A stretch of DNA of 36,415 nucleotides from an uncultured Bacteroidia bacterium. Its GTDB lineage: Bacteria; Bacteroidota; Bacteroidia; Bacteroidales; UBA932. The stretch lies in assembly GCA_902762435.1 (NCBI GenBank), contig CACWOH010000030.1, forward strand, positions 1 through 36,415, in the 5' to 3' direction. This document shows, piece by piece, positions 17,069 through 26,264 of this stretch (its first letter is position 1; each line of letters begins with the position of its first letter). The notes beneath the pieces are model-generated. The model was given only the letters and a program-made list of their open reading frames with translations. It did no database searches and was not told the origin of the DNA. The position numbers and the translations under genes were made by a program.

Positions 17069-18808
17069 ATGATCCGCTTGCCTGACAATACCGTTTTCGG
17101 CGAATACACCGTGCACCGCTTCATCAAGGCGGGCCTGTACAACGACAGCTACATCGTGAAGAACGCCGCCGGCGTCCCCTTTTTCCTGAAGTTCTACGAC
17201 CTGGCGAACATGCCGGACAAGATGCTCCGGGAAGGGTTGGTGGAGGAGATCGTCTTCTGCCAGATCATCTCCCACCCCAACATCATCCGCCACGTCGGGA
17301 ACGGCTCCGGCAAGATCAACGGGCGGGATTTCCAGTATCTGGTCACGAAGTTCTTCAACGGCTCGCTCCTGTCGGAACTCCTCCGCAAGGGCAGGACCTT
17401 CTCCGTACAGGAGGCCAAGTCCATCCTCATCCCGGTCCTCGAGGGGCTCGTGTACCTGCATAATGAACTGCACCTGAACCACAACGACCTCACCCCGCGC
17501 AACATCCTGCTGGAATCCGGGCCGGACGGCGTCCTGACGCCGAAGATCATCGACCTCGGACACATGCACGAGGACGTGGACGGCGCCGTGCCCTTCCCGA
17601 CGGAGGACCTCAACCTGTTCTATGTAGCCCCGGAGGCCCTGAAAGGGACTTTTACCGCCAAGAGCGACGTCTTCTCCGTGTGCGCCATCCTCTACACGCT
17701 GCTTTACGGCAAGGCGCCCTGGCACTGCCACATCGGCGCGCACGACTCGTTCTATTCGCGCAAGATCAGCGTCGGGCGGGCCCGCGAGGCCGCGCTGGAG
17801 TTCCCGAAAGGCGGACCGGCCGACCCGGCGATGGACGCCATCCTGGAAGCCGGCCTGAACCCCGACCCCGCGCAGCGGCCGGACGCCTCCGTGCTGCTGT
17901 CCCTGCTGTCGGAGGACTTCCAGCCCGGAGAGATCAGCCTGCGGGAGGCGACCGCCCCGGCGGACCAGCCGCAGGAAGCCGAGAAGCCCCGGGAGGACCA
18001 GGTCCGGCTGCAGGCCCGCAGGAACCGGCCCGGGCAGGGCGGATTCGCCGACGTGGCCGGCATGGAAGGGCTCAAGCAGGAGCTGCTCCAGCGGGTGATC
18101 TGGGTGCTGCAGGACAAGGAAAAGGCCGCCCGGTACCGCCTGCTCCCGCCCAACGGGATGCTGCTCTACGGCCCGCCGGGCTGCGGCAAGACCTTCTTTG
18201 CCAAGAAGTTTGCCGAGGAATCGGGCTTCAACTACTACCTGGTGAACGGTTCCGACCTGGGCAGCACCTACATCCACGGCACGCAGGGCAAGATCGCTGA
18301 CCTGTTCCAGAAGGCCGAGATGAACGCGCCGTCGGTCATCTGCTTCGACGAGTTCGACTCGTTCGTGCCCGCCCGCGGGTCCGATTCGGCCCGCAACCGC
18401 GCGGAAGAGGTGAACGAGTTCCTCTCGCAGCTGAACAACTGCGCCGAGCGGGGCGTGTTCGTGATCGGCACCACCAACCGCGTGGACATGATCGACCCGG
18501 CCGTGCTGCGCAAGGGGCGGATGGACCTGAAGTACGAGATTCCTGCTCCGGACGCCGAGACGCGCCGGGCGATGTTCGCCATCCACCTGAAGGGACGCCC
18601 TCTCTCGGACGATGTGGACCTGGACCGCCTGGCCCTGCTGTCCGACGGCTACGCCTCGTCCGACATCGCCTTCATCGTGAACGAGGCGGCGATGGTGGCG
18701 GCACTCGCCGACGAGTCCATCTCGCAGGAAATCCTGGAAAAGTCCATCAAGGGCAACCCCTCTTCCCTCTCGGCGCCCAAGCGGCCCCGGATCGGGTTTG
18801 ACAGCTGA
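17069..18808 (+). CDS. Ser/Thr protein kinase fused to an AAA+ ATPase
   Basis: A 579-residue two-domain protein without signal peptide or membrane segment. Residues about 10-285 form a eukaryotic-like kinase: ATP Lys41 (FFLKFYD), catalytic loop HNDLTPRNIL (Asp140, Asn145; Asn replaces the usual Arg), DLG instead of DFG (Asp162) and an APE motif at 187-189. A charged linker (290-325) leads to an AAA+ module: Walker A GPPGCGKT (368-375), Walker B VICFDEFD (423-430), sensor-1 TTN (468-470), and LRKGRMD with arginine-finger candidates. The AAA+ part is closest in look to the FtsH/Cdc48/proteasomal group. All key residues appear present. The substrate is unknown. It lies 12 nt after the broken GH2 gene and ends at a terminator. 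Confidence 0.9.
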   Translation: MIRLPDNTVFGEYTVHRFIKAGLYNDSYIVKNAAGVPFFLKFYDLANMPDKMLREGLVEEIVFCQIISHPNIIRHVGNGSGKINGRDFQYLVTKFFNGSLLSELLRKGRTFSVQEAKSILIPVLEGLVYLHNELHLNHNDLTPRNILLESGPDGVLTPKIIDLGHMHEDVDGAVPFPTEDLNLFYVAPEALKGTFTAKSDVFSVCAILYTLLYGKAPWHCHIGAHDSFYSRKISVGRAREAALEFPKGGPADPAMDAILEAGLNPDPAQRPDASVLLSLLSEDFQPGEISLREATAPADQPQEAEKPREDQVRLQARRNRPGQGGFADVAGMEGLKQELLQRVIWVLQDKEKAARYRLLPPNGMLLYGPPGCGKTFFAKKFAEESGFNYYLVNGSDLGSTYIHGTQGKIADLFQKAEMNAPSVICFDEFDSFVPARGSDSARNRAEEVNEFLSQLNNCAERGVFVIGTTNRVDMIDPAVLRKGRMDLKYEIPAPDAETRRAMFAIHLKGRPLSDDVDLDRLALLSDGYASSDIAFIVNEAAMVAALADESISQEILEKSIKGNPSSLSAPKRPRIGFDS

Positions 18809-18951: not shown

Positions 18952-19221
18952 ATGCAAACAATCAAGAAATTCCAGTTCGGCCGCCTTTATGCCGCCCCCA
19001 AATCCACTAAGATTTACGAACTCCTCCATCGGGACGGCCATTTCCTTACCTTCCGGGTCAGAAATCCCAAAACCCGGGATTCCTGGAAGCAGCGCTCCAC
19101 TTCCACCTACAAAGCTGATGCTTCCGGGGCCTTTGAAGAAGTTCTATTCTCCGACGGGGTCCGCCTCCGCTCGGACAACTGCCGTCCGGTGCCGGAAACG
19201 GCCCGCCCGAGCGCTGCATAA
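18952..19221 (+). CDS. Small basic protein of unknown function
   Basis: An 89-residue open frame between the terminator of the kinase-AAA+ gene and the his promoter. I do not recognise a family. It is rich in Lys/Arg and aromatic residues in the first half (FGRLYAAPKSTKIYELLHRDG; VRNPKTRDSWKQRS). A cytosolic nucleic-acid-binding or domesticated fragment is imaginable but unsupported. Codons in the first half are less GC-rich than in neighbouring genes, which can mean a young, transferred or weakly expressed gene. The start is chosen for its distance to the promoter-like element; an alternative ATG lies at 18943. Confidence 0.5.
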   Translation: MQTIKKFQFGRLYAAPKSTKIYELLHRDGHFLTFRVRNPKTRDSWKQRSTSTYKADASGAFEEVLFSDGVRLRSDNCRPVPETARPSAA

Positions 19222-19236
19222 ATATGGCCGCTGAGA

Positions 19237-19267
19237 TTTGCTTTTTTGGAAATAATGGATAACTTTG
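19237..19267 (+). promoter_or_regulatory. his operon promoter
   Basis: TTTG at 19237-19240, a 19-nt spacer and TAACTTTG at 19260-19267 match the Bacteroidota consensus exactly. Transcription should start at about 19272-19275, at or just before the leader-peptide ATG (19276), so the his mRNA probably begins with almost no untranslated leader. Confidence 0.85.
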
Positions 19268-19275
19268 CAAAACGT

Positions 19276-19317
19276 ATGACTATGAGCACCGCATACCACC
19301 ATCACCACCGAGCCTGA
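19276..19317 (+). CDS. hisL: his operon leader peptide (MTMSTAYHHHHRA)
   Basis: A 13-codon open frame with four consecutive His codons (19297-19308), followed by Arg-Ala and TGA at 19315-19317. It lies between the his promoter and hisG and precedes a terminator hairpin, the arrangement of a classical ribosome-mediated attenuator. A second ATG at 19282 is in frame and could be the real start. Stalling at the His codons when charged His-tRNA is scarce would cover the 5' strand of the first competing helix. The name follows the enterobacterial leader by function, not by homology. Confidence 0.9.
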   Translation: MTMSTAYHHHHRA

Positions 19318-19392
19318 AGTGTCCGGTAGGTCGGTGCGTATGTGCGTGACGCGATAGCGAGGCTTGCCGGTGTGTCCGGCAAGCCTTTTTTT
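19306..19392 (+). promoter_or_regulatory. his attenuator: alternative antiterminator and terminator helices
   Basis: Three mutually exclusive pairings can be drawn. The 1:2 helix joins 19306-19311 to 19331-19336, plus 19313-19315 to 19328-19330. The antiterminator joins 19323-19332 to 19361-19370 (10 bp, three G-U). The terminator joins 19360-19370 to 19376-19386 (11 bp, 5-nt loop), followed by U residues to 19392. A ribosome stalled on the His codons blocks the 1:2 helix and favours the antiterminator. A ribosome at the stop codon covers the antiterminator's 5' arm and favours termination. hisG begins 23 nt after the U-run. Confidence 0.88.
19360..19392 (+). terminator. Attenuator terminator hairpin upstream of hisG
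   Basis: A perfect 11-bp GC-rich stem (AGGCTTGCCGG with its complement), TGTGT loop and a run of T through 19392. Confidence 0.93.
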
Positions 19393-19414
19393 GTGAAAGT
19401 TAGTAGTAAAAGAT

Positions 19415-20266
19415 ATGTTAAGATTAGCCATCCAATCCAAGGGCCGCCTCAACGAGGAGAGCACCGCCTTGCTGCGCGAGATCGGAATCGACATCGACGA
19501 TTCGCGCCGGAAGTTTCTGGCCCAGGCGCCGAACTTCCCCCTGGAAGTCCTCTATATGCGCGACGACGACATTCCGCAGGTCGTGTCCAGCGGCACCGCC
19601 GGACTGGGCATCGTGGGCCTGAACGAGGTCGAGGAGCGCGGCTTCGACGTCAAGGTCGAGAAGAAACTCGGCTTCGGCGGCTGCCGCATCTCCCTGGCCG
19701 TTCCCAAGGCCGTGGACTATGACGGTCCGCAGTGGTTCCAGGGCAAGCGCATCGCCACCTCCTACCCCGGCATCCTGAAGCGCTGGCTGCAGGAGCAGGG
19801 CATCGAGGCCCGCATCGAGGTGATCACCGGTTCGGTGGAAATCGCCCCGGCAGCCGACATCGCCGACGCCATCTTCGACATCGTCTCCTCCGGCGGGACG
19901 CTGGTTTCCAACGGATTGCGAGAGGTCGAGCAGGTCTTTTTCTCCGAGGCGGTGCTGATTTCGTCCGGACAGCTGTCCGCCGAAGAGCAGGCCACGCTGG
20001 ACGAGATTCTATTCCGCATCGACTCCGCGATGGTGAGCCGCCGCAAGAAATACATCCTGATGAACCTGCCGGAAGCCTCCGTGGAGGAGGCCTGCCGGAT
20101 CCTTCCCGCGATGCGCAGCCCGACCGTGATGCCGCTCGCCGCCAAGGGCTGGTGCTCGATGCACTCCGTGGTGGACGAGGCGGACCTCTGGGACAAGATC
20201 CGCCAGCTCAAGGCCATTGGCGCCGAGGGCATCCTGGTACTCAACATCGACAAAATCATTCCGTAA
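19415..20266 (+). CDS. hisG: ATP phosphoribosyltransferase, long form
   Basis: A 283-residue enzyme that joins ATP and PRPP to give phosphoribosyl-ATP, the first and committed step of histidine synthesis. The N-terminal catalytic part begins MLRLAIQSKGRL and contains the ATP-PRT pattern GTAGLGIVGLNEV. The C-terminal about 75 residues match the HisG_C regulatory domain (PTVMPLAAKGWCSMHSVV), so this is the long, homohexameric form that binds histidine directly and needs no HisZ. Feedback inhibition would act alongside the attenuator upstream. It is the first structural gene of the operon; hisD follows 3 nt after its stop. Confidence 0.97.
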   Translation: MLRLAIQSKGRLNEESTALLREIGIDIDDSRRKFLAQAPNFPLEVLYMRDDDIPQVVSSGTAGLGIVGLNEVEERGFDVKVEKKLGFGGCRISLAVPKAVDYDGPQWFQGKRIATSYPGILKRWLQEQGIEARIEVITGSVEIAPAADIADAIFDIVSSGGTLVSNGLREVEQVFFSEAVLISSGQLSAEEQATLDEILFRIDSAMVSRRKKYILMNLPEASVEEACRILPAMRSPTVMPLAAKGWCSMHSVVDEADLWDKIRQLKAIGAEGILVLNIDKIIP

Positions 20267-20269
20267 ACC

Positions 20270-21553
20270 ATGCTGGAAGTTTTCTTCAACCCTCCCCGGG
20301 AACAGTGGGAAGCGCTCTGCCGCCGGCCGTCTTCCGAGAATCCGGCCGTCCGGGAACGCGTACAGGACATCCTGCGCCGCGTGCGCGAGCAGGGCGACGA
20401 GGCCCTGCGGGCGCTCTCGCTGGAGATTGACAAGCGTCCGCTCGACGCCATCGAGGTGAACGCCGACGAGATCCGCGAAGCTTCGGAAAGCGTCAGCGAG
20501 CCGGTCCGGCGGGCCATCGCGGCTGCGGAAGAGACCATCCGCGCCTTCCACGAGGCCCAGCGGCCGCAAGAGATCTGCGTGCTGACCGCCCCGGGCGTGC
20601 GCTGCATCCAGCGCCCCGTTCCCATCGAACGGGTGGGCCTGTACATCCCCGGCGGCACCGCCCCCCTCTTTTCCACCGTGCTGATGCTCGCCGTCCCGGC
20701 GGCCATCGCCCAATGTCCCGAAGTGGTGCTCTGCACCCCGGCGGGCAAGGACGGGAAGGTGAATCCGGAAGTGCTTTACAGCGCCGCGTACTGCGGGGTG
20801 AAGCGCATCTTCAAGCTCGGCGGGGCGCAGGCCGTGGCCGCCATGGCCTACGGCACGCAGAGCGTCCCGAAGGTGGACAAGATCTTCGGCCCGGGCAACC
20901 AGTACGTCACCACCGCCAAGCAGCTGCTCTCCGCCGGCACCGTCGCCATCGATATGCCGGCAGGGCCGTCCGAGGTAATGGTCGTTACGGACGGTTCGTC
21001 CCCCGCCTCCTTCGTCGCGGCGGACCTGCTTTCGCAGGCCGAACACGGCCCGGACAGCCAGGTGATGCTGGTCTGCGGGGACACCGCGACCGCCGAATCC
21101 GTCCGCGCCGAGGTGGAGCGGCAGGCACGGCAGCTGCCCCGCGCAGATTTCGTCCGGCAGGCACTGGACAAGAGCCGCTGCGTCGTTTTCCCCGACACGG
21201 AAGACCGGATCGCCTTCGCGAACGCCTATGCCGCCGAGCACCTCATCCTCGCGGTGCGGGAGCCCTGGAGTTTTTCCGCCCGGATCACCGCCGCGGGCAG
21301 CGTGTTCATCGGCGCCTGGACGCCCGAGAGCGCCGGCGACTACGCCTCCGGTACCAACCACACCCTGCCCACCTGCGGATGGGCCCGTTCGTTCAGCGGG
21401 GTGAACCTGGACAGCTACTACCGCAAGATGACCCTCCAGGAACTCACGCCCGAAGGCCTGCGCGGACTCTCACAGACCATCGTCACGATGGCGGAAGCGG
21501 AAGGGCTGCAGGCCCACGCCAACGCCATAAAAATCCGCCTGTCCGATGAATAG
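20270..21553 (+). CDS. hisD: Histidinol dehydrogenase
   Basis: A 427-residue zinc- and NAD-dependent enzyme for the last two oxidations, histidinol to histidine. Visible motifs are the [11 protein letters not shown] segment, [25 protein letters not shown] with Gln-His metal and substrate ligands, the catalytic Glu-His in AYAAEHLIL, and the GTNHTLPT motif near the end. Length and order are normal for the family. Its 3' end overlaps hisC by 8 nt, favouring coupled translation. Confidence 0.97.
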
Positions 21554-22592
21554 CATAGAATCCCTGGTCCGGCCCAACATCCGCGCCCTGTGCCCCTACA
21601 GCACCGCGCGGGATGAATACGAGGGGAAACTCGGCATCTTCCTGGATGCCAACGAGAGCCCCTACCCCACCGGCTGGAACCGCTACCCGGACCCGCACCA
21701 GAAGGCGCTCAAGGAGCAGGTCGCCGCGCTGAAAGGCGTACCGGCGGAATGCATCTTCCTCGGCAACGGCAGCGACGAGGCCATCGACCTGTGCTTCCGC
21801 ATCTTCTGCACCCCGGGCGAAGACAACGCCATCGCGATCGCTCCCAGCTACGGGATGTATGCGGTGGCTGCCGACATCAACGACATCGGAATGCGCCAGG
21901 TGCCGCTGGGAACGGATTTCTCCCTCCCTGCCGAGGAACTGCTTGCCGCCGCCGACGCGCACACCAAGCTGCTTTTCCTGTGCAGCCCCAACAACCCGTC
22001 GGGCAACGCTTTCGAGCCCGCGGAGCTGGAGGCGCTGATCCGCCGCTTCCCCGGCATCGTGGTGGTGGACGAGGCGTACGCGGACTTCAGCGCGAAGGGC
22101 AGCCTGCGGGAGCGCCTGCCGGAACTGCCCAACCTGATCATCTTCCAGACGCTCTCCAAGGCCTACGGACTGGCCGGCCTGCGCCTTGGGATGGCCTTCG
22201 CAAGCTCCTATATCATCCGGCTGATGTCGATGGTAAAATACCCCTACAACATCAACCAGTCCACGCAGGAGCTCGTGTCCCGCGCCCTGCAGACCCCGAT
22301 CGCGGACCGCGTGGAGGAAACCGTGGCCCAGCGCGCCCGCGTGGCGGCGGCCCTGCCCGCCTTCCGCTGCGTGAAGCGCGTTTACCCCAGCGACGCCAAT
22401 TTCCTGCTGGTGCAGGTGGACGACGCCGACACGCTGTACACGCACCTTCTCGCCGACGGCATCATCGTGCGCAACCGCAGCCGGGTTCCGGGCTGCGCGG
22501 GCTGCCTGCGGATCACGATCGGCCTCCCGTCCGAAAACGACCAACTGCTACAATCCCTCTCCGCATATGAAAAAGGCGATATTCATCGATAG
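21546..22592 (+). CDS. hisC: Histidinol-phosphate aminotransferase
   Basis: A 348-residue class I/II PLP aminotransferase that converts imidazole-acetol phosphate and glutamate to histidinol phosphate. The [18 protein letters not shown] opening is characteristic of HisC. Cofactor contacts are seen in [18 protein letters not shown] and the PLP Lys in [14 protein letters not shown]. It overlaps hisD by 8 nt and hisB by 26 nt, so its last codons are also the start of hisB in another frame. Confidence 0.96.
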
Positions 22593-23625
22593 GGACGGCA
22601 CGCTGCTGCGCGAGCCTTCCGACGAGCAGATCGATGCGCTCGAAAAAGTGGAATTCGTGCCCGGCGCCATCAGCGGCCTGAAGGCCCTGACGGGCCTGGG
22701 TTACGAACTGGTGATGGCCTCCAACCAGGACGGCCTGGGCACCCCGGCCTTCCCGGAAGAGACCTTCTGGCCGGCCCAGAATCTGCTGCTGCGCACCCTG
22801 GAAGGCGAAGGCGTCGTGTTCGACGACATCCTCATCGATCCCTCCTTCCCGGAGGACAACTCCCCCAACCGCAAGCCCGGAACGGGAATGTTCGGCAAGT
22901 ACCTGGACGGCTCTTACGACCTCGCTGCCAGCTGGGTGATCGGCGACCGGGAAACCGACCGCCGGCTCGCTGAAAACCTCGGCGCGAAGGCGCTGCTGGT
23001 GGGCGAGCTGGACTGGGCGCAGATCGCGGAAACCATCCGCAGTAGCGAGCGCTGCGCCGAGGTGGCCCGCAAGACCGCGGAGACCGACATTTACGTGCGC
23101 GTGGACCTGGACGGCAAAGGGCCGTCCGGGGTGGACACCGGGCTGAAGTTCTTCGACCATATGCTTTCCCAGCTTCCTCACCACGGTGGCATTTCCCTGG
23201 AAATCAAGTGCAAAGGCGACCTGGAGGTGGACGAGCACCACACGATGGAGGACGTAGGCATCGCCCTCGGGGATGCCCTCCGGCAGGCCCTGGGCGACAA
23301 GCGGGGCACGGAACGCTACGGCTTCGCCCTGCCCATGGACGAGAGCCGCGCCATCGTGCTGCTGGACTTCGGCGGCCGGAGCGAACTGGTCTGGGACGTG
23401 CCGTTCACGCGCGAATACGTGGGCGACGTGCCCACCGAGATGTTCAAGCACTTCTTCAAGTCGCTCTCCGACGCGATGAAGGCCAACCTGTACGTGCAGG
23501 CCCGCGGGGAGAACAACCACCACCTCGCGGAAGCCGTCTTCAAGGCCTTCGCCCGCAGCCTGAAACAGGCCGTGCGGCGCGACGTCTTTTCCTATGACCT
23601 TCCCTCCAGCAAAGGACTGCTATGA
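22567..23625 (+). CDS. hisB: Bifunctional histidinol-phosphatase / imidazoleglycerol-phosphate dehydratase
   Basis: A 352-residue fusion catalysing two non-consecutive steps. Residues 1-160 are a HAD phosphatase (FIDRDGTLL with nucleophile and acid Asp; [22 protein letters not shown]) for histidinol phosphate. Residues about 165-352 are the dehydratase, with the metal-binding His clusters in [31 protein letters not shown] and [14 protein letters not shown]. The two-domain form is shared with Enterobacteria and Bacteroidota. It overlaps hisC by 26 nt and hisH by 4 nt (ATGA). Confidence 0.97.
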
Positions 23626-24209
23626 TCGCGATCATTGACTACGACGCCGGCAACATCCGTTCGGTCGGCAACGCCCTGCAGCGGCTGGGCGCGGAATATG
23701 AGTTGACCGCCGATCCCGCCCGCATCCTCGCGGCGGACAAAGTCATCCTGCCCGGCGTGGGCAACGCGGCCGAAGCGATGGCGCACCTGCGGGAACGCGG
23801 GCTGTGCGAACTGATCCGGAGCCTGCGGCGCCCCGTGCTGGGCATCTGCGTAGGCATGCAGCTGATGTGCCGCGACTCCGAAGAGGGGCCGACGCAGGCG
23901 CTGGGTATTTTCGATGCCCACGTGCGCCGCTTCACCGAGACCCCGGACGCCAAGGTCCCGCATATGGGCTGGAACGCCCTGGGCAACCTGGACAGCAAGC
24001 TGTTCAAGGGACTGGAAGGCGGGGCCTACGTTTATTTCGTGCACTCGTACTACCCCGGACTCTGTCCCGACACGGTCGCGACCTGCCGCCACGGAGACCG
24101 CCTGTTCAGCGCGGCGCTCAAGTACGAGAATTTCTACGGTACGCAGTTCCACCCCGAGAAGAGCGGCTCCGTGGGAGCGGCGATCCTCCGAAATTTCCTT
24201 GCCCTATGA
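23622..24209 (+). CDS. hisH: Imidazole glycerol phosphate synthase, glutaminase subunit
   Basis: A 195-residue class I glutamine amidotransferase that supplies ammonia to HisF. The triad is visible: Cys in GICVGMQLM, and His and Glu in [11 protein letters not shown]. The N-terminal [16 protein letters not shown] and the [10 protein letters not shown] oxyanion region are typical. ATGA overlaps with both hisB and hisA keep the subunits' translation linked, although its partner hisF is two genes downstream. Confidence 0.97.
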
Positions 24210-24949
24210 TACGGATCATCCCTGCCATCGACCTGATCGACGGCCGTTGCGTGCGCCTGACGCGCGGCGACTATCTGCAGAAGAAAGTGTACGACGGCTC
24301 CCCAGCCGACGTGGCGCGCAGCTACGCCGACTGCGGCGTGGAGCGCATCCACCTGGTGGACCTGGACGGCGCCAAGACCGGCTCACCGAAGAGCCTGCGC
24401 ACCCTCGAGGCCATCGCTTCGGCGGTGTCCTGCGAACTCGAATGGGGCGGCGGACTCGCCGACGACGAAGCGCTGAAGGGCGCCTTCAATGCCGGTGCCA
24501 CGCACGCCGTCATCGGCAGCGTCGCGGCCCGGAAGCCGGATCTGTTCGAGTCCTGGCTGTCGAAGTACGGCGCCCGGATGATCCTCGGCGCCGACGTGCG
24601 CGACGGCCGGATCGCCATCTCGGGCTGGCTGGACTCCTCTCCGCTGGGCGTCGAGGACCTCGTGACCCGTTTCCTGCCCCTTGGGCTGCAGGAGTGCATC
24701 GTTACCGAGATTTCCCGGGACGGCATGCTGCAAGGTCCCGCCGCGGCGCTCTACGTGCGCCTGCAACGGAATTTCCCCACCCTGTCCTTCACCGTCAGCG
24801 GCGGCATTTCCGGGATGGACGACATCCGTATGCTGGACGCGCTGAAACTGAAGAAAGTCATCGTGGGCAAAGCCATCTACGAAAACCGTATCAGCTTAAA
24901 TGACATAGCCTCATGGTCGCAAAGCGCATCATCCCCTGCCTCGATGTAA
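24206..24949 (+). CDS. hisA: ProFAR isomerase (HisA)
   Basis: A 247-residue beta/alpha-barrel enzyme performing the Amadori rearrangement of ProFAR to PRFAR. The start at 24206 is fixed by the family opening [18 protein letters not shown]; longer in-frame extensions upstream lie within hisH and are not real. Catalytic Asp residues appear in IPAIDL (Asp8) and GADVRDGR. Phosphate-binding glycines are in WGGGL and TVSGGIS. The last 37 nt overlap hisF, giving HisA a C-terminal tail rich in Ser and Ala. Confidence 0.96.
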   Translation: MIRIIPAIDLIDGRCVRLTRGDYLQKKVYDGSPADVARSYADCGVERIHLVDLDGAKTGSPKSLRTLEAIASAVSCELEWGGGLADDEALKGAFNAGATHAVIGSVAARKPDLFESWLSKYGARMILGADVRDGRIAISGWLDSSPLGVEDLVTRFLPLGLQECIVTEISRDGMLQGPAAALYVRLQRNFPTLSFTVSGGISGMDDIRMLDALKLKKVIVGKAIYENRISLNDIASWSQSASSPASM

Positions 24950-25668
24950 AGGACGGCCAGGTCGTCAAGGGCATCAATTTCGAGGGGCTCCGCGAAGTCG
25001 GGGACGCCGTCGGAATGGGCATACAGTACGCCCGTGACGGCGCCGACGAACTGGTTTACCTGGACATCAGCGCCACCCAGGAAGGGCGCCGCACGTTCGC
25101 GGCCCTGGTGGAGCGCATCGCCCTCGGGATCGACATCCCCTTCACCGTAGGCGGCGGGATCGGTTCCGTCGAGGACGCCGCGCGCCTGCTCGACGCCGGT
25201 GCCGACAAGATTTCGGTTAACAGCGCCGCCATCAAGGATCCGTCCCTGATCGGACGCATCGCCGCCAAGTACGGCAGCCAGTTCGTCGTGGTGGCCATCG
25301 ATGCCAAGTGCATCGAGGGCCGCTGGACCTGCACCACGCACGGCGGCAAGCGCCTGACCGACGTGGAACTGTTCTCCTGGGCCCGCGAGGCGCAGGAACG
25401 CGGCGCCGGCGAAATCCTCTTCACCTCGATGGATCACGACGGCACCTGCGCCGGCTATGCCGATGCGGTCTATGCCCGCCTGGCGGACGAGCTCACGATT
25501 CCGGTCATCGCCTCGGGCGGCGCCGGCAGCATCGAGGACATCCGCCGCGTGCTCACCGAAGGGCGCGCCGACGCCGCACTCGCCGCCAGCATCTTCCACT
25601 ACGGGCAGATCCCCATCCCGGAATTGAAAAAAGCGTTAAAGGAGTCCGGAATAAACGTAAGAATATGA
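24913..25668 (+). CDS. hisF: Imidazole glycerol phosphate synthase, cyclase subunit
   Basis: A 251-residue beta/alpha-barrel partner of HisH. It closes the imidazole ring and releases AICAR for purine synthesis. The catalytic Asp residues are in CLDVKDGQVVKG (Asp11) and AIDAKC (about Asp130); phosphate sites are in TVGGGIGS and ASGGAGS. The start lies 37 nt inside hisA, and the stop overlaps the hisIE start (ATGA). Confidence 0.97.
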   Translation: MVAKRIIPCLDVKDGQVVKGINFEGLREVGDAVGMGIQYARDGADELVYLDISATQEGRRTFAALVERIALGIDIPFTVGGGIGSVEDAARLLDAGADKISVNSAAIKDPSLIGRIAAKYGSQFVVVAIDAKCIEGRWTCTTHGGKRLTDVELFSWAREAQERGAGEILFTSMDHDGTCAGYADAVYARLADELTIPVIASGGAGSIEDIRRVLTEGRADAALAASIFHYGQIPIPELKKALKESGINVRI

Positions 25669-26264
25669 AATTCAGCGATTTTAACTTAGACAAGACCGGC
25701 GACGGGCTGCTCCCGGTAATCATCCAGGACGCCACCACCCTGAAGGTGCTGATGCTGGGATATATGAACGAAGAAGCTTTCGGGAAGAGTGTGGAAACCG
25801 GTCTCGTGACCTTCTGGTCCCGCACCCGCCAGGCCCTCTGGACCAAGGGCGAGACCAGCGGAAACTACCTGCACGTCGTGGACATGTGGGCCGACTGCGA
25901 CGGCGACACCCTGCTCATCAAGGCGCGCCCCGACGGCCCCACCTGCCACCGCGGCACCACCGCCTGCTTCGACACGCCGGAGGACGAGGGATTCATCCGC
26001 ACCCTGCAGGCTGTCGTGGCCGACCGCCACGCCAGGATGCCGGAAGGATCCTATACCACCAAACTCTTCATCAAGGGGCCCAAGGCCATCGGCAAGAAGG
26101 TCATCGAAGAGGCCGGCGAAGCCGTCATCGAGGCCGTGGACGGCAAGCGCGACCGCTTCGTCTACGAGGCCTCGGACCTCATCTATCACCTGCTGGTCCT
26201 GCTGGAAAGCCAGGGCGTCAGCCCCGCCGAACTCGAGCACGAACTCGCCCTGCGGCACCGCTAG
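25665..26264 (+). CDS. hisIE: Phosphoribosyl-AMP cyclohydrolase / phosphoribosyl-ATP pyrophosphatase fusion
   Basis: A 199-residue bifunctional enzyme for steps two and three. The N-terminal HisI part has LMLGYMNEEAF, the metal-binding Asp cluster and Cys in DMWADCDGDTLLIKA, and the GPTCHRG motif. The C-terminal HisE part has IGKKVIEEAGEAVIEA, the MazG-like acidic motif that binds magnesium, and YEASDLIYHLLVLL. The start at 25665 overlaps the hisF stop. It is the last his gene; its TAG overlaps the TAG of the convergent PLP-lyase gene within the 4-nt palindrome CTAG. Confidence 0.96.
   Translation: MKFSDFNLDKTGDGLLPVIIQDATTLKVLMLGYMNEEAFGKSVETGLVTFWSRTRQALWTKGETSGNYLHVVDMWADCDGDTLLIKARPDGPTCHRGTTACFDTPEDEGFIRTLQAVVADRHARMPEGSYTTKLFIKGPKAIGKKVIEEAGEAVIEAVDGKRDRFVYEASDLIYHLLVLLESQGVSPAELEHELALRHR

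Follow-up and report, generated by a model that had tools for sequence, protein, structure and literature searches.

The window, the whole stretch of 36,415 nucleotides that was analysed, contains the his operon hisG-hisD-hisC-hisB-hisH-hisA-hisF-hisIE on the forward strand (19415 to approximately 26264), preceded by a short region that holds a His-rich leader ORF, a candidate promoter, and several overlapping RNA arms (Table 1). An ORF just upstream of the his region (17069-18808, forward strand) encodes two recognisable domains, a protein kinase domain and, after it, one of the AAA ATPase type. No tRNA was detected in the window by ARAGORN, and no Rfam family matched it at gathering scores.

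Table 1. Features of the his leader region and of the his operon in the window
Feature	Position	Strand	Basis or comment
TTTG, candidate -33 promoter element	19237..19240	+	19 nt upstream of the -7 box
TAACTTTG, candidate -7 box of the Bacteroidota primary sigma factor	19260..19267	+	fits TAnnTTTG; aligned in relatives (alignment A1)
his leader peptide ORF MTMSTAYHHHHRA, 13 codons + TGA	19276..19317	+	sequence; predicted near-leaderless
Four consecutive His codons, predicted stall site	19297..19308	+	sequence
Arm 1, overlapping the last His codon and the leader end	19306..19315	+	pairing by the helix of the earlier note: 64.2% of cells
Arm 2, 5' half of the antiterminator	19323..19332	+	90.7% of cells paired to arm 3, 55 sequences
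Arm 3, common to antiterminator and terminator	19359..19370	+	folding, covariation
Arm 4, 3' half of the terminator stem	19376..19387	+	91.3% of cells paired
T run of the intrinsic terminator, seven T's	19386..19392	+	sequence
hisG (long form), first operon gene	19415..20266	+	PF01634, PF08029, TIGR00070
hisD	20270..21553	+	PF00815
hisC	21546..22592	+	TIGR01141
Bifunctional hisB	22567..23625	+	NF003937
hisH	23622..24209	+	PF00117; name inferred from operon position
hisA (approximate ends)	24206..24946	+	TIGR00007, 225 bits vs cut-off 228.95, inside ORF 23804-24949
hisF	24913..25668	+	TIGR00735
hisIE (approximate start)	25752..26264	+	PF01502, PF01503 inside ORF 25308-26264

The leader ORF begins with ATG at 19276, ends with TGA at 19317, and encodes HHHH, a cluster of end-product codons before hisG, through the consecutive codons CAC CAT CAC CAC. 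Its AUG begins only 8 nt after the TAACTTTG box; this box and the upstream TTTG were absent from the earlier note on this DNA. For the leader RNA (19274-19392) the folding energy is -53.7 kcal/mol, which none of 200 dinucleotide shuffles equalled (z = -4.54). Arm 1 can form nine pairs and a bulged G with 19328-19336 (the 1:2 helix), arm 2 can form ten pairs, three of them G.U, with 19361-19370 (the 2:3 helix, or antiterminator), and arm 3 can form 12 pairs with arm 4 around a 5-nt loop (the 3:4 helix), which with the adjoining T run makes an intrinsic terminator between the leader and the first structural gene, 27 nt from hisG. The earlier note had described a 13-codon leader with four His codons in a row and a 10-bp antiterminator; the former was borne out upstream of hisG, and the pairs of the latter are present, compete with the terminator, and covary in relatives. 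Its terminator with a U-run was likewise recovered and is strong, although with a stem of 12 pairs from 19359 rather than 11 bp from 19360, and its 1:2 helix can form in the window but proved weakly conserved.

At the gathering score the window was unmatched by the Rfam his leader of Proteobacteria. A lax Rfam search of 19180-19440 yielded five weak matches, with no his leader, T-box, or riboswitch among them; the match nearest in kind was Thr_leader (16.1 bits vs a gathering score of 55, E = 1).

Upstream regions of hisG were then compared across the phylum. HisG matches were found in 48 of 101 genomes of the window's genus (29 of 48 among its good-quality genomes), 144 of 295 genomes at the order level, and 252 of 296 at the phylum level; a HisG search of GTDB contigs gave 33 loci, mostly from uncultured Bacteroidales and many from ruminants. 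Loci were read for 71 of the 144 order-level genomes with HisG, mostly the better-scoring ones, and for 43 of the 252 phylum-level genomes, picked by score and spread. Removal of identical 150-nt upstream sequences reduced 152 loci to 145 distinct Bacteroidales loci, divided into a close set of 74 (L001-L063 and L093-L110; the window's genus together with near contigs of unchecked genus, with L055 and L062 carrying other names) and an order-level draw of 71 (L064-L092 and L111-L152; the same genus and the same family are represented in it by a single genome each).

A short ORF with at least three His in six codons was present upstream of hisG in 121 of the 145 distinct Bacteroidales loci (61/74 in the close set and 60/71 in the order-level draw). 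At least four His in six codons were found in 103/145 loci, compared to 0/145 on the opposite strand, and the next commonest clustered amino acid on the forward strand was Leu (19/145). The window's-genus genomes alone had at least three His in 40 of 48 loci and at least four in 35. Among other Bacteroidia, all 25 loci read had a leader with at least three His, 23 of them with at least four, and the control strand had at least three in none of the 25; in other classes the corresponding counts were 10, 7, and 1 of 18 loci. A terminator-like hairpin lay between leader and hisG in 115 of the 121 loci with a leader, but the scan is lax and a poor test alone, as it also scored in 13 of the 24 loci without a leader and, among control stretches taken upstream of leaders, in 47 of at most 121.

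By the rule of at least three His in six codons no His-rich leader was found in 24 of the 145 Bacteroidales loci, 13 of them from the close set of 74. Inspected by eye, L019 keeps the hairpins with only HH in RRHHRR, and L079 keeps the arms and the terminator with three spread His. In L015, L016, L049, L053, and L054, also read by eye, hisG has no leader and lies directly 3' of another gene, an arrangement suggestive of either loss of the attenuator or relocation of hisG.

Conservation of the helices was assessed in an alignment (A1) of 55 close-set sequences, from which L025, L060, and L106 had been removed by hand out of 58. The terminator was paired in 91.3% of cells and showed double-sided changes at 10 of its 12 pairs, and none of 500 shuffles was as high on either measure. 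The antiterminator was paired in 90.7% of cells (95.5% in its main 7-bp helix), and its pairing fell to 27-50% when the partner was slid by 1-3 columns. It contained 34 double-change cells compared to 10.7 in shuffles (0/500 as high), confined to 2 of the 10 pairs; in the number of double-change pairs and of pair types A1 gave no excess over shuffles (497/500 and 230/500 as good). The 1:2 helix of the earlier note was kept in 64.2% of cells, and RNAalifold proposed a slightly shifted 1:2 hairpin, with some double changes, that runs from the last His codon into the first part of the same arm 2.

One chain of positions through arms 1-2-3-4 (columns 84-101-160-171) reads GCGC in 23, ATAT in 4, and TATA in 2 of the 55 sequences, all three pairs being kept with differing letters in these 29. 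Three further sequences have AGCG, in which the 2:3 and 3:4 pairs are kept and the 1:2 pair is not. On a HisG tree of 39 A1 loci, seven changes of state are seen in the 2:3 pair at the chain position, and 38 of the loci have a standard pair there. For 54 loci of the order-level draw, pairing of arms 2 and 3 from the same locus averaged -10.15 kcal/mol, compared to -8.93 (sd 0.23) for permuted partners, with 0/5000 permutations as good. Across the 112 loci retained for the 2:3 analysis (from 115, after leaving out those with spacing above 60 nt), the duplex was within the best 5% of 200 shuffles in 67 and outside it in 45.

The antiterminator, which excludes the terminator, lies close to the leader stop: in the 112 loci the median distance to the start of arm 2 is 29 nt from the first His codon and 0 nt from the stop codon. 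In our ribosome model the RNA was masked as far as 12 nt beyond the first base of the A-site codon, the footprint assumed for a ribosome. Before arm 4 exists, the modelled probability that arm 3 pairs upstream averaged, over these 112 loci, 0.77 with the ribosome at the first His codon and 0.36 with the ribosome at the stop codon, compared to 0.54 and 0.47 when spacers were shuffled; for the window it was 0.90 whichever His codon the ribosome occupied, and 0.54 when it stood at the stop. In the full-length RNA at equilibrium, the terminator wins in the median locus in every ribosome state (0.93 to 0.95; median 0.93 with the ribosome at His), so that antitermination would have to be kinetic. 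Kinetic switching is usual for known attenuators.

The earlier note had read the element as a classical His-codon attenuator, and this reading is supported by the conserved and covarying parts, their spacing, and the ribosome-masking model. The His runs that it proposed to look for upstream of hisG in related Bacteroidales are kept in most of the loci, the terminator and the antiterminator covary in the 55 sequences of A1, and a modelled ribosome frees arm 2 when at His and masks it when at the stop codon, as had been claimed from the geometry. Loss of the His codons and of the alternative pairings in close relatives, which the note had named as evidence against itself, was not what we observed; His codons, antiterminator, and terminator are conserved, the 1:2 helix only weakly. 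The note's further suggestion, that the same logic evolved independently of the enterobacterial leader, goes further than these data, as leader peptides are too short for their descent to be followed.

The candidate promoter agrees with the Bacteroidota pattern of a -7 box TAnnTTTG with TTTG near -33 (PMC7366714, in extract). Promoter spacing was obtained from 87 of the 121 loci, the remaining 34 being without a strict box followed by the AUG. From the end of the strict box to the leader AUG, the close set had a median of 7 nt, with 6-8 nt in 33 of 42 loci, and 36 of the 42 had TTG in the matching -33 interval; the order-level draw had a median of 21 nt, with at most 10 nt in 2 of 45 loci. If the start site lies ~3-4 nt past the box, as the name -7 implies, the predicted 5' UTR would be ~2-5 nt. 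In B. thetaiotaomicron most mRNAs have a 5' UTR of 23 nt, and only ~3.7% of 5' UTRs are shorter than 10 nt (PMC7366714, in extract).

The idea that the 6-8 nt spacing is special to leader ORFs was rejected when 372,847 bases of the genome to which the window belongs were scanned and such spacing was also seen before ordinary open frames. The AUG lay within 0-9 nt of 26 of the 79 boxes preceding frames of at least 100 codons, and of 6 of the 27 boxes that also had TTG near -33, these frames being mechanical ORFs of at least 100 codons in G+C-rich DNA and not verified genes. Box-to-frame distances peaked at 5-9 nt (20/79) and 20-24 nt (13/79) on contigs C1, C8, C10, C28, and C30. The close spacing is therefore a trait of the genome rather than of attenuators, and the organism may have many near-leaderless mRNAs, with its attenuators following suit.

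A second element of this kind was found in the same genome, where a WWW leader (MIIRKAAYWWWRLLQLKPVVRG; contig C10, 26586-26654) lies upstream of trpB, which precedes a trpE-like gene. In this trp element (C10 26570-26740, L198) the box stands 8 nt before the AUG and the terminator 38 nt after the stop codon; the one computed antiterminator candidate is a weak duplex (-8.5 kcal/mol). A leader with at least two Trp in six codons was present in 15 of the 16 genus loci with a close TrpB that were read (L218-L233). A close TrpB match occurs in ~17 of the 101 genomes of the genus, the remainder being weak matches to distant relatives, and by these gene counts, together with those for HisG (48/101), amino-acid biosynthesis is patchy in the window's genus. 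A scan of 16% of the genome for a box, a short ORF, and a terminator recovered, besides the his and trp elements, a single weak case, and no pheA or ilvD attenuator was seen by eye in the upstream sequence looked at in this genome.

In three other Bacteroidales families (f64, f97, and f32), two full modules of His leader and terminator stand in series before hisG (3/5 genomes of f64, 7/8 parsed in f97, and one in f32; L181, L183, L185, L187-L190, L192-L194, and L152, with L191 unparsed). In none of the ten cases from f64 and f97 was a TAnnTTTG box found between the two stop codons, pointing to two switches that act in series; but a strict box preceded leader 1 in only four of the ten, so that a second promoter is also possible. 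The one precedent for tandem attenuators found is the Salmonella mgtCBR leader, in which two leader ORFs sense ATP and proline (PMC3641672, in extract). Both arrangements place two leader ORFs in one leader RNA, but the mgtCBR ORFs sense different signals, whereas the tandem his modules, which are not a property of the window, would both sense histidine.

We consider it very probable that the element in the window attenuates transcription of the his operon in the classical, ribosome-mediated way. At the level of sequence, the features of leader-peptide attenuation that were checked are present and conserved, the 1:2 helix only weakly so. In the predicted mechanism, transcription would start just past the TAACTTTG box, and a ribosome would load almost at the 5' end of the RNA, with hardly any 5' UTR before the AUG, and translate the leader. 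When charged His-tRNA is plentiful, the ribosome would reach the stop codon and cover arm 2, arms 3 and 4 would form the terminator, and transcription would stop near 19392. When His-tRNA is short, the ribosome would stall on the four His codons, and the free arm 2 would pair with arm 3 as it emerges, pre-empting the terminator and permitting transcription of hisGDCBHAFIE.

The short distance between terminator and hisG, and the fact that the lax scan also scored upstream of many leaders, are compatible with a terminator that simply ends an upstream transcription unit, with the His-rich ORF being incidental and hisG having its own promoter nearer to the gene. We regard this as very improbable, because the terminator is closely preceded by the -7 box and the leader, the other strand has no runs of at least four His in six codons, arms 2 and 3 covary, for which a plain terminator would have no need, and no TAnnTTTG was seen by eye between the terminator stem and hisG. 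The strong fold of the leader RNA would also suit a histidine- or tRNA-binding RNA of the riboswitch or T-box type that needs no ORF; to this we assign a still smaller chance, given the Rfam results, the retention of the His reading frame while the surrounding sequence varies, and the agreement of the repeated codon with the operon, as in WWW before trpB in the same genome.

Control by the same parts could instead be mainly translational or Rho-dependent, for example if leader translation shields the RNA from Rho. Four loci (L158, L165, L167, and L179) keep a His-rich leader without a U-run terminator visible by eye, so other outputs may exist in the phylum; in the window, however, a 12-bp stem is followed by a T run, and the terminator has the most double-change pairs among the three tested helices, which leaves this reading as improbable as the riboswitch or T-box one.

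In the his attenuator of E. coli and Salmonella, hisG follows a leader peptide with successive His codons, helices 1:2, 2:3, and 3:4 that are alternatives to one another, and an intrinsic terminator; the enterobacterial leader has seven His. The window shares this leader His run, the alternative 2:3 and 3:4 helices, a possible 1:2 helix, and the intrinsic terminator before hisG; it differs in having four His and a Bacteroidota-type promoter box that stands so close to the AUG. In mycobacteria, leaderless poly-Cys short ORFs act as attenuators. These resemble the leader of the window in that an ORF at or near the 5' end of the RNA serves as an amino-acid sensor, but they concern another amino acid and another phylum and are not known to have the hairpin set of the window. 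Lopatovskaya et al. reportedly dealt with attenuation in bacteria in 2010.

Within the phylum, a 2021 transcriptome study of Flavobacterium reported 'strong clues' in F. psychrophilum that leader-peptide attenuators precede its amino-acid operons, and described conserved elements without Rfam hits, among them a hisG 5' element common to F. psychrophilum and other Flavobacteriaceae (PMC9723704, in extract). That element belongs to the same phylum and the same gene as the one in the window, the likeness being one of gene and description. The loci that we presume, as a guess, to be of the Flavobacteriaceae kind, such as L168, have other arms (CCCGTCTGA...TCAGACGGG), and the promoter is much nearer the AUG around the window's genus. 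B. thetaiotaomicron has sORFs in long 5' UTRs that are reminiscent of attenuation leaders (PMC7366714, in extract). A survey of leader genes that includes Bacteroidetes names gamma-proteobacteria where hisG is discussed (PMC4833913, in extract), and a paper on the his genes of the superphylum has a single mention of attenuation, upstream of hisG in enterobacteria (PMC8305728, in extract). No description of a his attenuator in Bacteroidales was found in the open-access literature, subscription papers being mostly uncovered. His attenuation in Bacteroidota is partly described already, for Flavobacterium (PMC9723704, in extract), and is not wholly new. The predicted element is widespread in the phylum, and its distinctive feature is a leader predicted to be near-leaderless. 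The present comparison adds the 6-8 nt promoter spacing around the window's genus, the trp element of the same genome, and the tandem his modules of other families.

For leader-peptide attenuation to work, transcription and translation must be tightly coupled, and ribosomes must load efficiently on a very short ORF. Shine-Dalgarno sequences are said to be missing from Bacteroidetes mRNAs (PMC7366714, in extract), so the widespread switches make coupling and Shine-Dalgarno-free initiation testable in gut and environmental Bacteroidota. A joint reading, which we offer as possible but rather doubtful, is that amino-acid attenuation free of Shine-Dalgarno sequences is phylum-wide, that the near-leaderless AUG near the window's genus lets the pioneer ribosome load at the RNA exit and so keeps translation in step with transcription, and that other lineages stack two His attenuators under one promoter, which would sharpen the response. 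The attenuator family gives annotators a rule for unexplained 5' regions and points to natural variants, namely near-leaderless leaders and stacked attenuators for the same signal.

The four Bacteroidia loci without a U-run terminator by eye (L158, L165, L167, and L179) have His-rich leaders ending in HHFHHSS, which perhaps represent another way of reading a stalled ribosome. Two of them, L158 and L167, have a common conserved block after the leader.
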